Source of the DNA: Marinospirillum sp.
GTDB lineage: Bacteria > Pseudomonadota > Gammaproteobacteria > Pseudomonadales > Halomonadaceae
Length of the DNA: 64,000 nt
NCBI RefSeq assembly: GCF_014859565.1
Contig: NZ_JACUUA010000001.1
Location: 43,427 to 107,426, forward strand
Direction: 5' to 3'
The notes beneath the pieces were generated by a model. The model worked only from the letters and a program-made list of their open reading frames with translations, was not told where the DNA came from and searched no databases. Shown here in pieces: positions 41,278 to 63,415 of this stretch; positions within the stretch are counted from its first letter, which is position 1, and each line of letters begins with the position of its first letter. The position numbers and the translations under genes were made by a program.

Positions 41278-42852
41278 TCACCTTAAAAAGTTGTGCATAA
41301 AAGCGGGATCAGCCAGTTGCTGACTGAGATTTTGAATATCACCAGCCAGAGGTCGATCATCTGTTAAGCCATCGGCAATTTTGCGTACCGCTTGGTACAA
41401 CTGGCTGGCGGATTGAGAAAAGCCTGCCGACTGACCACCCCTCAGCTCATAACCCTGGCTGAGAATCAGGCTTTCAATAGCCAGCAGTTCAGTCAATCGC
41501 TCCAGAGTGGTAACACAGCGCCGGGCCGCCAGAGTGCCCATAGTCACTACATCCTGATTATTGGCATTGGTGGCAATGGACTGAATACTGGCTGGGCTGG
41601 CTTGAGTGCGCATTTCCGCAACCAGAGCCGTAGCGGTGACCTGAGCACCCATAAAGCCACTGTGCAGGCCGTTGTTGTTACCGCGTAAAAAGGGTGGCAG
41701 TCCCTGATTCATACTGGGGTCAGTGATGCGGGCAATGCGTCTTTCACTGTGCACCGCCAGCGTGATCAGGGCGTTGTTCAAGGCATCGGCTGCCAAGGCA
41801 ACATGCTGGCCGAAAAAGTTACCACCATGCAGCACTTCCTGAGTCTCTGGCAGAAACAACGGGTTGTCGGTGACCGACCAGACTTCTCTTGCCACCACCT
41901 GATGATGAAAGTCCAGGGTGTCTTTAACGGCACCCAGATGCTGGGGTGCACAACGGAAGGTATAGGCATCCTGGGGTAAAGGTTGATTGTGTCGAGCTGT
42001 ACCGGCTGCCAGGTCTTGCGGCAAGCGTGGCGGTGGTTGTTCTACACCTTGCAAACGCTGGCTGTCGGCGCAGGCTTTTAGTAATGCTTCCTGCGCCCAA
42101 AGCTGACCCGGATGGGGACGCAGTTGTGCCAGCCCCGGTTGCAGGGCTTCCAAGTGGCCGTTCAGGAGTTCACCATAAAGTCCCGTCAGAGCAACCGAAA
42201 GCCGTAATAAACGCTCAGCCTGACAGGCATTCAGTGCAGCGATAGCGGTCATGGCCGAAGTGCCATTCACCAGCGCTAGGGCATCCTTACCTTGCGGATT
42301 CAAAGATTGAAGTTTGGCTTGCTGTAACGCCTGGAGTGCGGGCATGCTGGCATCTTTCAACCAGACTTCCCCCTGTCCCATTAAACCCAGAGTGATGTGA
42401 GCCAGAGGAGTCAGATCACCACTGGCTCCCACGGTGCCTATGGCTGGAACTTGAGGGATCAGGTCTTTTTCCAGACAGTCGAGTAATAGTTGCAGAGCTT
42501 CAGGGCGAATGGCGGAGTGGCCACGAGCCAGGGTCACGGCACGGGCGGCCATGATTGCCCGAACCTGTTGTTTTTTTAACAGCGGGCCGGTGCCGCTGGT
42601 CAAATGATGCACTAAACCCTGCTGTAGTTGTGCGGACGATTCGGTATCCACATAGGTATTGGCCAAGGGGCCATAACCGGTGGTGACCCCGTAAATTCTT
42701 CTTTTACCTGCAATTAGTTGATCGAGAAATTCGCGGCAACGAGTCACCGCCTGCCAATGAGGTTCGCTGAGTTCCAGCGTGGCACCCAGAGCAATGGCTT
42801 CCAGTTCTTCCAGAGTCAGACTGGTTTCTGCCTGCAGTTGTATCGTCTTCAT
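41278..42852 (-). CDS. tal: Tyrosine ammonia-lyase (PYP chromophore synthesis)
   Basis: 524 aa MIO-type aromatic amino acid lyase; deaminates L-tyrosine to p-coumaric acid. The MIO cofactor triad ASG is in GTVGASGDLTPLAH (residues 143-145); catalytic Tyr is in YGVTTGYGPLAN (about 60). The substrate-selectivity site reads VHHLTSG: the His83-Leu84 pair matches His89-Leu90 of Rhodobacter tyrosine ammonia-lyase, where the histidine recognises the tyrosine hydroxyl; histidine lyases (HutH) have Ser-His and PALs have Phe-Leu there. It follows pcl with a 3-bp gap and is on the same strand as pyp. No hut genes surround it, which argues against histidine degradation. Confidence 0.88.
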   Translation of the reverse strand: MKTIQLQAETSLTLEELEAIALGATLELSEPHWQAVTRCREFLDQLIAGKRRIYGVTTGYGPLANTYVDTESSAQLQQGLVHHLTSGTGPLLKKQQVRAIMAARAVTLARGHSAIRPEALQLLLDCLEKDLIPQVPAIGTVGASGDLTPLAHITLGLMGQGEVWLKDASMPALQALQQAKLQSLNPQGKDALALVNGTSAMTAIAALNACQAERLLRLSVALTGLYGELLNGHLEALQPGLAQLRPHPGQLWAQEALLKACADSQRLQGVEQPPPRLPQDLAAGTARHNQPLPQDAYTFRCAPQHLGAVKDTLDFHHQVVAREVWSVTDNPLFLPETQEVLHGGNFFGQHVALAADALNNALITLAVHSERRIARITDPSMNQGLPPFLRGNNNGLHSGFMGAQVTATALVAEMRTQASPASIQSIATNANNQDVVTMGTLAARRCVTTLERLTELLAIESLILSQGYELRGGQSAGFSQSASQLYQAVRKIADGLTDDRPLAGDIQNLSQQLADPAFMHNFLR

Positions 42853-42855
42853 TAA

Positions 42856-44148
42856 TTACTCAGTTGGTGTCAGGTTGGAAGTCTGTAGCGGCCAGTCGCT
42901 GGCTTTGCCTAGAGCATTACAAGGCAGTTGAGCTCCAAAAGTAAACGCCTGGGGGCGCTCAGCAGTCTTGAGATTTTTCTGGCACCAGGCTTGCAGTTGC
43001 TGGCGCAGCTCTGATTCTGACTGTTGAGGGTCAGCCGGTATCACAAAAGCCTTGAGGCGCTCACCTTCTTCTGGAGACATCAGGCGTACCTCCACATTCT
43101 GAACCTCAGGCAGCTGGCGCAGTTGTTCAGCAATTCGTGCAGGAAAAACATTGGTTCCGGCAACCTGCACCGCCTGATCCAGACGACCTGCCGGATAAAA
43201 GTGACGGGCATCCTGCCATTGCAGTTGATCGTTAAGAGGTTGCTGCTGATGGGAAGCAAGATCCAGCAGGGCATCATCCCGGCCTTCAACAGCCTGCCAG
43301 CGTGGCAGCAGCTGAAAGGGCTGTTCGGTTTGCTCACGCCAGCCCAAACCACCGGTTTCACTGGAACCGTAAATCTCCACCAGAGGATTCAAACCCTGCT
43401 GATGGAGTTGTTGAATCACTTGAGGGTCGCAGGGGCCGGTGGAGGTGATGCCCGCCACTCCGGCAGGAAAAGCCTGCTGGCTGCGACTGATCTGCTTCCA
43501 GATAAAAGGAAAGCCGATCACCAGATCACCAGCTTGCAGGTTGCGGCTTTGCACCAAAGAAAAAGCCCGGGTGCCCCGAATCACTGGAACCTGCAACAGG
43601 TTCGGCAGCAAGGCAGAAAATAAAAAACCATAAATATGCTGGCAGGGGCTAAGTGCCAGAATACGCTGGATCGGCTGCTGTAATCTTTGGGTAAATATTT
43701 GGCGAAAATAGTCTGCTTCGGCCACCAGGCTCTGCCAATTCTGCGGACAGGGTTTGGGCTGGCCGGTACTGCCAGAGGTATAGAAGGTGAGGTTCTGAGT
43801 GCCACGCTTTCTGGCTTCAGCCACCAGTTCGACCCACTGTCCCAGGGTTTTGTATCTCAGTAGATAATCTTCCAGGCCGCTTTCACGCAGCTGAAAAAAA
43901 TCGGTCACACGGGTGGCTAAGGCCAGCTTTTCCAGCGAGTCGGCTTGCAGCGAAACCTGTTCAGCATCGGCAGGCAAAGGATGAATCGAGGTGTGCTGAT
44001 CCCAATCCTCAGAAAAAATATCCTGAGCCGTTTCGGGTCGTAACGTCTTGAGTTCATCGGCCAGCAGTGCCTTGATGACCTCCAGAAGCATGTTTTCGCT
44101 CAGCTCAAAGCCTTGTCTCTCAAAACCCTGCATCTCAAAACCCTTCAT
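42856..44148 (-). CDS. pcl: p-Coumarate:CoA ligase of the PYP-activation type
   Basis: 430 aa adenylate-forming enzyme, shorter than plant-type 4-coumarate:CoA ligases (about 540) as is usual for the PYP-associated family. It activates p-coumarate for transfer to the PYP cysteine. TFYTSGSTGQPKPCP (residues 121-135) is the phosphate loop, IYGSSETGG (260-268) motif A5, YPAGRLDQAVQVAGTNVFP motif A8, and NALGKASDW carries the A10 lysine. The N-terminus holds three imperfect 15-bp repeats giving KGFEM/QGFER/QGFEL, with a GGAG 8 nt before the ATG; the conserved protein may begin at Met20. Adjacent to tal. Confidence 0.87.
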   Translation of the reverse strand: MKGFEMQGFERQGFELSENMLLEVIKALLADELKTLRPETAQDIFSEDWDQHTSIHPLPADAEQVSLQADSLEKLALATRVTDFFQLRESGLEDYLLRYKTLGQWVELVAEARKRGTQNLTFYTSGSTGQPKPCPQNWQSLVAEADYFRQIFTQRLQQPIQRILALSPCQHIYGFLFSALLPNLLQVPVIRGTRAFSLVQSRNLQAGDLVIGFPFIWKQISRSQQAFPAGVAGITSTGPCDPQVIQQLHQQGLNPLVEIYGSSETGGLGWREQTEQPFQLLPRWQAVEGRDDALLDLASHQQQPLNDQLQWQDARHFYPAGRLDQAVQVAGTNVFPARIAEQLRQLPEVQNVEVRLMSPEEGERLKAFVIPADPQQSESELRQQLQAWCQKNLKTAERPQAFTFGAQLPCNALGKASDWPLQTSNLTPTE

Positions 44149-44173
44149 CAGCCCATCTCCTTAACCGCATTGT

Positions 44174-62824: not shown

Positions 62825-62986
62825 GATGAGCCTACCTTAGTGATGCAGTGGGTGCGGATGAAAGTTGCATGGGCGACCTAAGAGCTGAATGATATATTCC
62901 TTATACCATATTTTACTTGGTGGTGCCTCTGCATACAGACTCAAATATAGGTAGGGATCTAGTGTGAATCAATAGTGCAGATAAAT
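62825..62986. other. Leader region of the Che operon
   Basis: 162 bp between the pyp terminator and the receptor start. It must hold the operon's promoter if the terminator is efficient, but I see no convincing sigma-70, sigma-28 or sigma-54 match on the minus strand. Confidence 0.4.
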
Positions 62987-63015
62987 AAAAAAGGGAGGCA
63001 ATAACCTCCCTTTTT
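62987..63015 (-). terminator. Rho-independent terminator after pyp
   Basis: GGGAGG (62993-62998) pairs with CCTCCC (63005-63010); the A-run before it and T-run after it make it work in both directions. It separates pyp from the Che operon, so pyp can be a single-gene transcript. Confidence 0.8.
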
Positions 63016-63037
63016 GAGCTGAAAGTGGCGACGAACA

Positions 63038-63415
63038 TTACAAGCGCTTAACAAACACCCAGTAGCTTTCACCGTTCAGGGCTTTTTTCATGTGTACCTT
63101 CACCTTGGTGGGCTTCATTTCATGATCAAAGGTGTATTCGAACATGACATTCAGATTGCCCCCTTTCACGCCTTCATCAAAACGGCCTTTGAACTCGGGG
63201 CGGTTGGTGCAGGGAGCTACTTCACGAAAAAAACTCTTGCCGATCACCTTGCTGGGATCACGACCGGTGATATCACCTTCTGCTGCGTTGTATTGCAGAA
63301 TCTTGCCCTGAGCATCTAGCTGGATGGCACCAAAAGCAACCCCATCCAGTTGCTGTTTGGACATTTTGGCCAGGGTGTTTTCAATGTTGTCAGAACCGAA
63401 GGATAAAACTTCCAT
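63038..63415 (-). CDS. pyp: Photoactive yellow protein
   Basis: 125 aa, exactly the length of Halorhodospira halophila PYP and co-linear with it. Blue-light receptor of the PAS fold carrying trans-p-coumaric acid thioester-linked to cysteine. Every key position is kept: Cys69 (in VAPCTNRPEF) for the chromophore; Tyr42, Glu46 and Thr50 (in YNAAEGDITGRD) for its hydrogen-bond network; Arg52 gate; Tyr94, Phe96, Met100 and Trp119 around the pocket. The start is the ATG at 63415 with AGAGGT 7 nt upstream; a GTG at 63424 is also in frame. Own terminator. The tal and pcl genes for its chromophore are 20 kb away at the other end of the same-strand gene run. Confidence 0.97.
   Translation of the reverse strand: MEVLSFGSDNIENTLAKMSKQQLDGVAFGAIQLDAQGKILQYNAAEGDITGRDPSKVIGKSFFREVAPCTNRPEFKGRFDEGVKGGNLNVMFEYTFDHEMKPTKVKVHMKKALNGESYWVFVKRL

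Follow-up and report, generated by a model that had tools for sequence, protein, structure and literature searches.

A chemosensory gene cluster within a split pyp operon of Marinospirillum, with photoactive yellow protein as a candidate light input

Gene content of the pyp locus

Photoactive yellow protein (PYP) is a model photoreceptor for biophysics. The stretch of Marinospirillum sp. DNA analysed here, 64,000 nucleotides of contig NZ_JACUUA010000001.1 and referred to as the window, contains the PYP gene (pyp) as the first of 19 genes, all on the minus strand, between positions 41278 and 63415. The genes for the two predicted chromophore enzymes, pcl and tal, are the last of the 19, and a chemosensory (Che) gene set lies inside. 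Gene and domain calls confirmed this arrangement, with pyp and pcl-tal at opposite ends and the Che set between them, as it was given in the original prediction for this DNA.

The pyp gene (63038..63415, ATG start at 63415) encodes 125 amino acids and passes the curated cut-off of the NCBIfam family photo_yellow (TIGR02373; 197.4 bits, cut-off 143.05). The residues of the chromophore site, Tyr42, Glu46, Thr50, Arg52 and Cys69, are all kept in the alignment, and the protein is 92% identical to the PYP of Marinospirillum celere. The nearest solved structures carry the name photoactive yellow protein; we take them to be the Halorhodospira halophila protein. The best codon fit among the 31 window genes tested was that of pyp, a gene of only 126 codons, as would suit high expression from a unit of its own.

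The pcl gene (42856..44148), encoding a predicted 4-coumarate-CoA ligase, scored 332.0 bits against TIGR02372, less than 3 bits short of the cut-off of 334.7. It adjoins tal, is homologous to the ligase beside pyp in relatives and is 60% identical to M. celere pcl. The tal gene (41278..42852; Pfam Lyase_aromatic) encodes a predicted tyrosine ammonia-lyase (TAL), 83% identical to that of M. celere. Its top solved match is 2o6y, listed as 'putative histidine ammonia-lyase', which we take to be the Rhodobacter TAL. Both an LVHHL and an ASG motif were found in the alignment with 2o6y, and the His-Leu pair of LVHHL is presumably a mark of tyrosine selectivity. Judged by their protein families, Tal and Pcl together would yield holo-PYP. 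An odd short repeat (GFEMQGFERQGFEL) is located at the N terminus of pcl (44148-44100), exactly where the Che block joins.

The Che set includes a receptor, CheW, CheA, CheY, CheB and CheR. The first gene is mcp1 (60884..62824), encoding a chemoreceptor signalling protein of 646 amino acids with three stretches of Pfam MCPsignal and, by eye, two tip-like regions; neither a sensor domain (Pfam, E 0.001) nor a membrane segment (hydropathy) was found in it. It is followed by cheW3 (59286..60866), with three CheW domains seen as three stretches of Pfam CheW, by cheB (58150..59289; methylesterase and receiver) and by the gene of a HEAT-repeat protein of 205 amino acids (57531..58148; Pfam HEAT_2), for which the later start at 58148 was chosen. 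The methyltransferase gene cheR (56651..57508) and the single receiver cheY1 (56261..56647) precede cheA (53439..56252), whose product has Hpt, dimer, ATPase and CheW domains; its start near 56252 was chosen, and the frame as listed opens at 56294. Then come a small STAS-like protein of 80 amino acids (53166..53408; Pfam STAS_2, E 9e-5, under the curated cut-off), a parA-like ATPase (52330..53169; Pfam AAA_31/CbiA), the single receiver cheY2 (51911..52288) and the short receptor mcp2 (50746..51909; MCPsignal). MCP2 has a short hydrophobic N terminus, the segment starting at residue 7, but no recognised sensor domain. Both receptors lack a recognised sensor domain and as such would need a partner for input. 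The tail of the block consists of the single receiver rr2 (50333..50704), a CheB-CheR-PAS fusion (47528..50317), a PAS histidine kinase (45760..47544), a receiver-histidine kinase hybrid (44596..45747) and the single receiver rr1 (44174..44545). A cyclic di-GMP output of the Wsp-like kind was rejected, as no GGDEF domain was found among the 19 scanned proteins.

The original prediction described mostly short gaps and overlaps and a locus built around a chemosensory operon. Short joins are indeed found at 17 of the 18 positions (-34 to +50 bp, mostly computed with the first listed start codons), the exception being the 213 bp between pyp and mcp1. This gap contains, directly 3' of pyp, a terminator-like hairpin with a stem of 12 pairs and a U-run (63015-62988, minus strand, -18.0 kcal/mol), the longest stem of 33 terminator-like matches (15 + 18; both strands, 41000-64000). 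A weak promoter-like site on the same strand follows the hairpin upstream of mcp1 (62972-62944, 9/12 match), such sites being no more frequent in the region than in shuffles. Because the strong terminator-like hairpin sits in the sole gap above 50 bp, pyp is probably outside the operon, and an operon of all 19 genes was rejected. At the other end pcl starts 25 bp after rr1 with no terminator-like site in between. Given this and the short gaps from mcp1 to tal, the chromophore genes would ride on the Che unit as the last two genes of a predicted operon. Most likely, then, mcp1 to tal form one 18-gene unit and pyp is transcribed alone, so that the operon part of the description holds for these 18 genes but not for pyp. 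Another weak promoter-like site is found ahead of rr1 (44599-44572), from which rr1-pcl-tal could have a start of their own.

The DNA upstream of pyp, from 63576-63752 on to 64000, is IS200/IS605-like, with 76% identity to a Vibrio plasmid stretch annotated tnpA, and an apparent broken TnpB start was seen by eye near 63860. In a plasmid search the DNA ahead of pyp gave just five short hits, and IS200/IS605 annotations account for two of them. Beyond tal, mgtE and apbE are in opposite orientation to the 19-gene block; two MgtE-type magnesium transporter genes (36581-37993 and 39910-41265) flank BacA and ApbE genes. Further left, positions 11621-14119 encode a protein of 832 amino acids with a major facilitator superfamily transporter domain and a C-terminal cyclic-nucleotide-binding domain. 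The window is most likely chromosomal DNA, because its left part has the usual genes of a chromosome origin (gyrB, recF, dnaN, yidC, mnmG, atpA and atpD). An Rfam scan at gathering thresholds gave 0 matches.

Relatives of the pyp operon and of the Che cluster

The pyp relatives were compared as the best 80 of 124 matches, many of the loci being truncated by contig ends (genomes and loci are numbered G and L). A pcl match begins within 400 bp of pyp in 76 of the 80 loci. In one of the others (L023) it begins right at the end of pyp, two loci end at a contig edge and one has pcl 1.2 kb off, so pyp and pcl are contiguous in 77 of 78 informative relatives. A tal-like match was found within 4 kb of pyp in 45 of the 80. 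In M. celere the pcl match opens about 15 bp past the pyp stop. In the window 17 other genes, about 18.9 kb, separate pyp from pcl, and the contiguity of pyp, pcl and tal of the H. halophila type is absent. A Che block of the window type was not found in the flanks (up to 10 kb) of the 80 pyp loci, searched with seven Che genes as queries at E 1e-8; the flanks of L040 contain Che genes of another kind and those of L071 one cheB-like match. Since pyp and pcl are contiguous in nearly all informative relatives, the Che block of the window appears to sit inside an operon that is ordinarily closed.

Other surroundings of pyp were also seen. In Halomonas salicampi (L038, 10001-16773) the genes downstream of pyp-pcl, all on its strand, are a DCC1-like gene, one for a receiver-GGDEF protein and one for a large hybrid kinase. 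In G021 (L159, 11456-18075) a pyp 90% identical to that of the window and pcl lie beside three photolyase-type genes; a tal match was not found in the 30 kb fetched. Diverged PYPs, 26-33% identical to that of the window and with the APC motif kept, are encoded in G129, G156 and G180 (L186, L187 and L188). They adjoin a PAS-type protein like the one in G241 described below, with kinase-like matches nearby.

The Che set was traced with the triple-CheW protein as marker (E <=1e-40, a limit chosen after the first results revealed a gap between 1e-85 and 1e-23). At least 1157 homologues at E <=1e-60 are present among the 7999 candidates scored. The order sample has the gene in 6 of 293 genomes, the class sample in 11 of 369 and the family of G241 in 3 of 22; in the family of G012 (Vreelandella massiliensis) it was seen in 7 of 201 and 7 of 275. 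Among pyp-bearing genomes, where the search covered those of 65 of the 80 pyp loci, 4 of 16 plus 2 of 49 have it. These samples overlap (G001 and others recur), and 28 outside genomes altogether carry the gene. Twenty-two clusters are uncut from mcp1 to cheA, contig ends cut four (G003, G224, G503 and G548), and G614 and G709, where contig ends leave no more than fragments of the gene, do not figure in the comparison of surroundings.

The order mcp1-cheW3-cheB-HEAT-cheR-cheY1-cheA is kept in 21 of the 22 uncut outside clusters, and therefore by more than chance; the exception, G554, has no mcp1 match ahead of cheW3. STAS-parA-cheY2-mcp2 come next in the same order in nine of the 22 (G001, G012, G241, G412, G702, G724, G725, G748 and G901). 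Elsewhere parA is in another place or unmatched, and part of this second half is unmatched at its place in G009, G332, G333 and G812, but a STAS-like homologue follows cheA in most clusters compared. The three closest relatives of the window's Che set are those of G748, G901 and G012; in these clusters too rr1 is the last matched gene on the Che side, and the CheB-CheR-PAS fusion has no match in them. A 34% homologue of the fusion lies beside the cluster of G333. Taken together, the comparisons suggest that the Che core is a stable unit and a stand-alone system, found mostly without PYP.

Eight outside genomes contain both pyp and the Che set, with nine pyps in total. In V. massiliensis (G012, locus L040) the cluster runs from mcp1 to rr1 and a second pyp follows 306 bp on; no clear promoter site was found by a scan of this 306-bp gap. 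The encoded PYP2 is 65% identical to the window PYP and keeps all key residues. The first pyp, with pcl-tal, sits on another contig, where the same-strand genes after pyp-pcl-tal encode a dCache receptor, CheB, CheR with tetratricopeptide repeats and CheA with a receiver (L040, 10001-20151). These Che genes represent a different system, and the PYP1 locus was rejected as a second link of the same type. A looser association is seen in G241. Here a PAS-like protein, a diverged PYP (38%), an MCP, an ammonia-lyase and a convergent pcl are found 6-10 kb ahead of mcp1-cheW3-cheB. The MCP gene after pyp encodes no recognised sensor domain, and the PYP keeps the APC motif and Cys69. In G604 (L136) a methyl-accepting chemotaxis protein (MCP)-PYP fusion is encoded by an open frame of 552 residues (MCP part assigned by eye). 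A pcl match comes immediately after the fusion, which is far from that genome's Che cluster of the window type. Linkage of pyp to this Che set thus recurs in G012 and, more loosely, in G241, but the two are mostly apart elsewhere.

The phylogenetic tree of the Che set (eight joined proteins, 18 clusters) shows the window and G012 as sisters with SH-like approximate likelihood ratio test (SH-aLRT) support of 100, and the Che set of M. celere far from that of the window. This tree was made without G224 and G548 and also without G724, G725, G748, G812, G841, G901 and G903; its rows are the best match per genome, and the receiver row may be a paralogue. In the PYP tree, made without the three weak rows G129, G156 and G180, the window groups with M. 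celere (97/87), and PYP2 of G012 joins PYP1 of the same genome and two relatives from the Halomonadaceae (100/97); the PYP of G241 is a third, much more distant one. Forcing the window PYP and PYP2 together was rejected by the approximately unbiased (AU) test (p 0.0006; tree also without the long G241 row), a p value that is optimistic because the pair was picked after the tree had been seen; PYP2 has a long branch, and the 125 alignment columns are few. A single ancestral PYP-Che linkage common to the window and G012 was rejected on this test. Because the Che sets of the two are sisters and their PYPs are not, PYP was probably attached to the Che set at least twice independently, and related Che sets seem to have acquired different PYPs.

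PYP and the Che array

Together, these observations suggest that the window has a split pyp operon, with pcl-tal ending a predicted 18-gene Che operon, and we lean, by a small measure, towards PYP being a soluble light input to the array. The chemosensory machinery is likely the partner that reads the predicted light sensor, because the pairing recurs, in looser or different form, in two other bacteria. Published cases of PYP beside sensor-less receptors, the binding of CheW by Ppr (both described below) and an MCP-PYP fusion such as that of G604 point the same way. In the proposed circuit Tal would produce p-coumarate and Pcl would activate it for attachment to Cys69 of PYP, as suggested by homology, and blue light would drive the PYP photocycle, as the conserved residues suggest. 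Lit PYP would then bind or release a sensor-less receptor, most likely the soluble MCP1 or the membrane-anchored MCP2, in the manner proposed for CetB and CetA, and would alter CheA activity via the triple-CheW scaffold. CheA would phosphorylate CheY1, CheY2 or the tail receivers, with adaptation by CheB and CheR, and the output might be motility or another behaviour.

Several observations weigh against a functional tie. Of the 22 genomes picked out by the Che gene regardless of pyp, 20 gave no match to pyp, an absence that is uncertain in some of them as they are fragmented; the five from the family of G012, whose first search had no positive control, were searched again among 275 genomes (32 matching) with the same result. 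Among the closest Che relatives, G748 and G901 have a like tail of rr2, kinases and rr1 and yet no pyp. In six of the eight outside genomes with both (G001, G003, G009, G332, G333 and G604) pyp and the Che set lie on different contigs or far apart on one, so that they are apparently unlinked, less certainly in G003, which is in small contigs. A gene set resembling a peptide transporter (named by eye) and running the other way separates pyp from the Che genes in G241, where the PYP scores 70.7 bits, under the cut-off of 143, and carries Gln in place of Glu46 and Met in place of Arg52. The recurrence of linkage favours a tie, the chance of at least two of nine pyps lying within 10-20 kb of the Che set being 0.001-0.0045, but this figure assumes random placement and was computed after the pattern was seen. 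Co-occurrence was rejected as an argument for the tie: in the 275 genomes of the family of G012 pyp was found in 32, the Che set in 7 and both in 2 (Fisher p 0.19), and in the order sample without G001 (n=292) the Che set in 5, pyp in 10, three of these matches being weak, and both in 1, with 0.17 expected (p 0.16). The Che gene is more frequent in pyp-bearing genomes (6 of 65) than in the order sample (5 of 292; p 0.006), but these sets differ in taxonomy and the comparison was not relied on. Finally, co-transcription of pyp with the Che unit is unlikely, given its own predicted terminator.

The original prediction held that the locus contains the missing signal path from PYP, and it named independent occurrence of pyp, tal and pcl and of this Che set in related genomes as the outcome that would count against it. 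That is largely what the Che-found genomes without pyp show. The Che set is therefore a separate system, to which PYP was hooked up probably more than once. What stands of the proposal is the placing of pcl and tal at the end of the Che unit and of pyp near the same set in two genomes; as the general path of PYP it does not hold. The best reading is that PYP may be a recurrently recruited add-on light input to an array with sensor-less receptors.

The alternative that survives best, although we consider it doubtful, is that the Che cluster recombined between pyp and pcl as a bystander, the closeness being functionless and PYP signalling elsewhere. The contiguity of pyp and pcl in relatives, the terminator-like hairpin of pyp itself and the usual separation of the Che set and pyp would all fit such an insertion. 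A similar accident would be required in G012, and a looser one in G241, for which the odds given above are low, and the insertion has to account for pcl and tal frames that are still open 25 bp behind the Che unit. The block lies close to the host genes in both base composition and codon usage, so the insertion does not look recent.

A less probable alternative is a two-component relay that shares the Che operon, in which PYP would address the tail kinases (PAS histidine kinase, receiver-kinase and rr1) instead of the receptors. The kinase-receiver tail adjoins pcl in the window and pyp2 in G012, the available text of PMC12826048 gives pyp operons with HisKA/HATPase genes, and kinase-like matches lie near the diverged PYPs of G129, G156 and G180. 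The like tail of G748 and G901 is found without any pyp match, and the gene after pyp in G241 encodes a receptor, not a kinase. A misassembly wrongly joining the pyp locus to the Che cluster is very improbable: the joins are known from one assembly only, but two wrong joins would be needed, one on each side of the block, there is no jump in guanine-cytosine content or codon use, and PYP is near the same cluster in other genomes too.

Returning to PYP as an add-on input, a wider and more tentative version is that it may be an interchangeable light cartridge, with unrelated PYPs repeatedly plugged into sensor-less arrays, and that the locus may hold a complete and self-sufficient circuit from tyrosine to phosphorylated CheY. 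If true, this would fill in the signal path sought for PYP and provide a Che kinase ready for optogenetic use. The recurrent, apparently independent linkage narrows the search for a partner to a few candidates that can be tested, headed by MCP1 and MCP2, and V. massiliensis is a named strain with both a linked and an unlinked PYP.

Comparison with known PYP and Che systems

Parts of this arrangement are already published, namely PYP beside sensor-less receptors and MCP-PYP fusions, as described in the available text of the papers cited below; a full PYP-Che locus is not among the literature matches listed. No pyp locus with a full Che set was found among the titles and abstract openings listed in the literature searches, which mostly did not cover subscription papers, and no published description of the window's combination of Che genes was found among the matches listed or in the papers checked for it. 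Stand-alone clusters of the type mcp1-cheW3-cheB-HEAT-cheR-cheY1-cheA-STAS-parA-cheY2-mcp2 have the same genes in mostly the same order as the window, and are mostly without pyp.

The partner of PYP in H. halophila phototaxis is described as unknown in the available text of PMC12826048 and PMC5812497. The latter reports that inactivation of pyp in other purple bacteria left photomovement unaffected, a result that argues against a general role of PYP in sensing light for phototaxis. The operon counts in the available Table 2 of PMC12826048 comprise GGDEF, EAL, HisKA, HATPase, pCL, TAL and BLUF, with MCP only as fusion.

In H. halophila pyp is followed by pCL and TAL in a single operon, and the absorption of its PYP, in the blue, is at about 446 nm (available text of PMC12826048). 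The same three genes with the same presumed roles are present in the window, and its PYP keeps the chromophore-site residues, but the operon of H. halophila is closed whereas pyp in the window is parted from pcl-tal by an 18-kb Che block.

Ppr of Rhodocista centenaria, a PYP-phytochrome-kinase protein, binds CheW (available text of PMC2993699). It is alike in being a PYP-bearing protein tied to CheW; it differs in being a multidomain kinase in which, according to the same text, the contact is through the kinase domain. Mutation of Ppr is reported to have no obvious effect on phototaxis (available text of PMC5812497).

Twelve MCP-PYP fusions, including those of Methylomicrobium and Nitrincola, are reported in the available text of PMC12826048. 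In these PYP is a chemoreceptor input, as is proposed for the window, and G604 has such a fusion. The fusions are one chain, while the window PYP is encoded by a separate gene of 125 amino acids and so is not a member of this group.

The closest parallel in layout is Leptospira, where PYP lies beside sensor-less chemoreceptors and is proposed to bind them as in CetB/CetA (available text of PMC9664959). Leptospira and the window are alike in having a soluble PYP next to receptors without sensor domains, and mcp1, lying beside pyp and lacking a sensor domain, has the layout of a CetB/CetA-like pair. MCP1 differs from the Leptospira receptor, as described there, in having no membrane segment. Just the receptor gene is described next to pyp in the accessible part of the Leptospira work, whereas the window brings the full Che set and the chromophore genes together at one locus.

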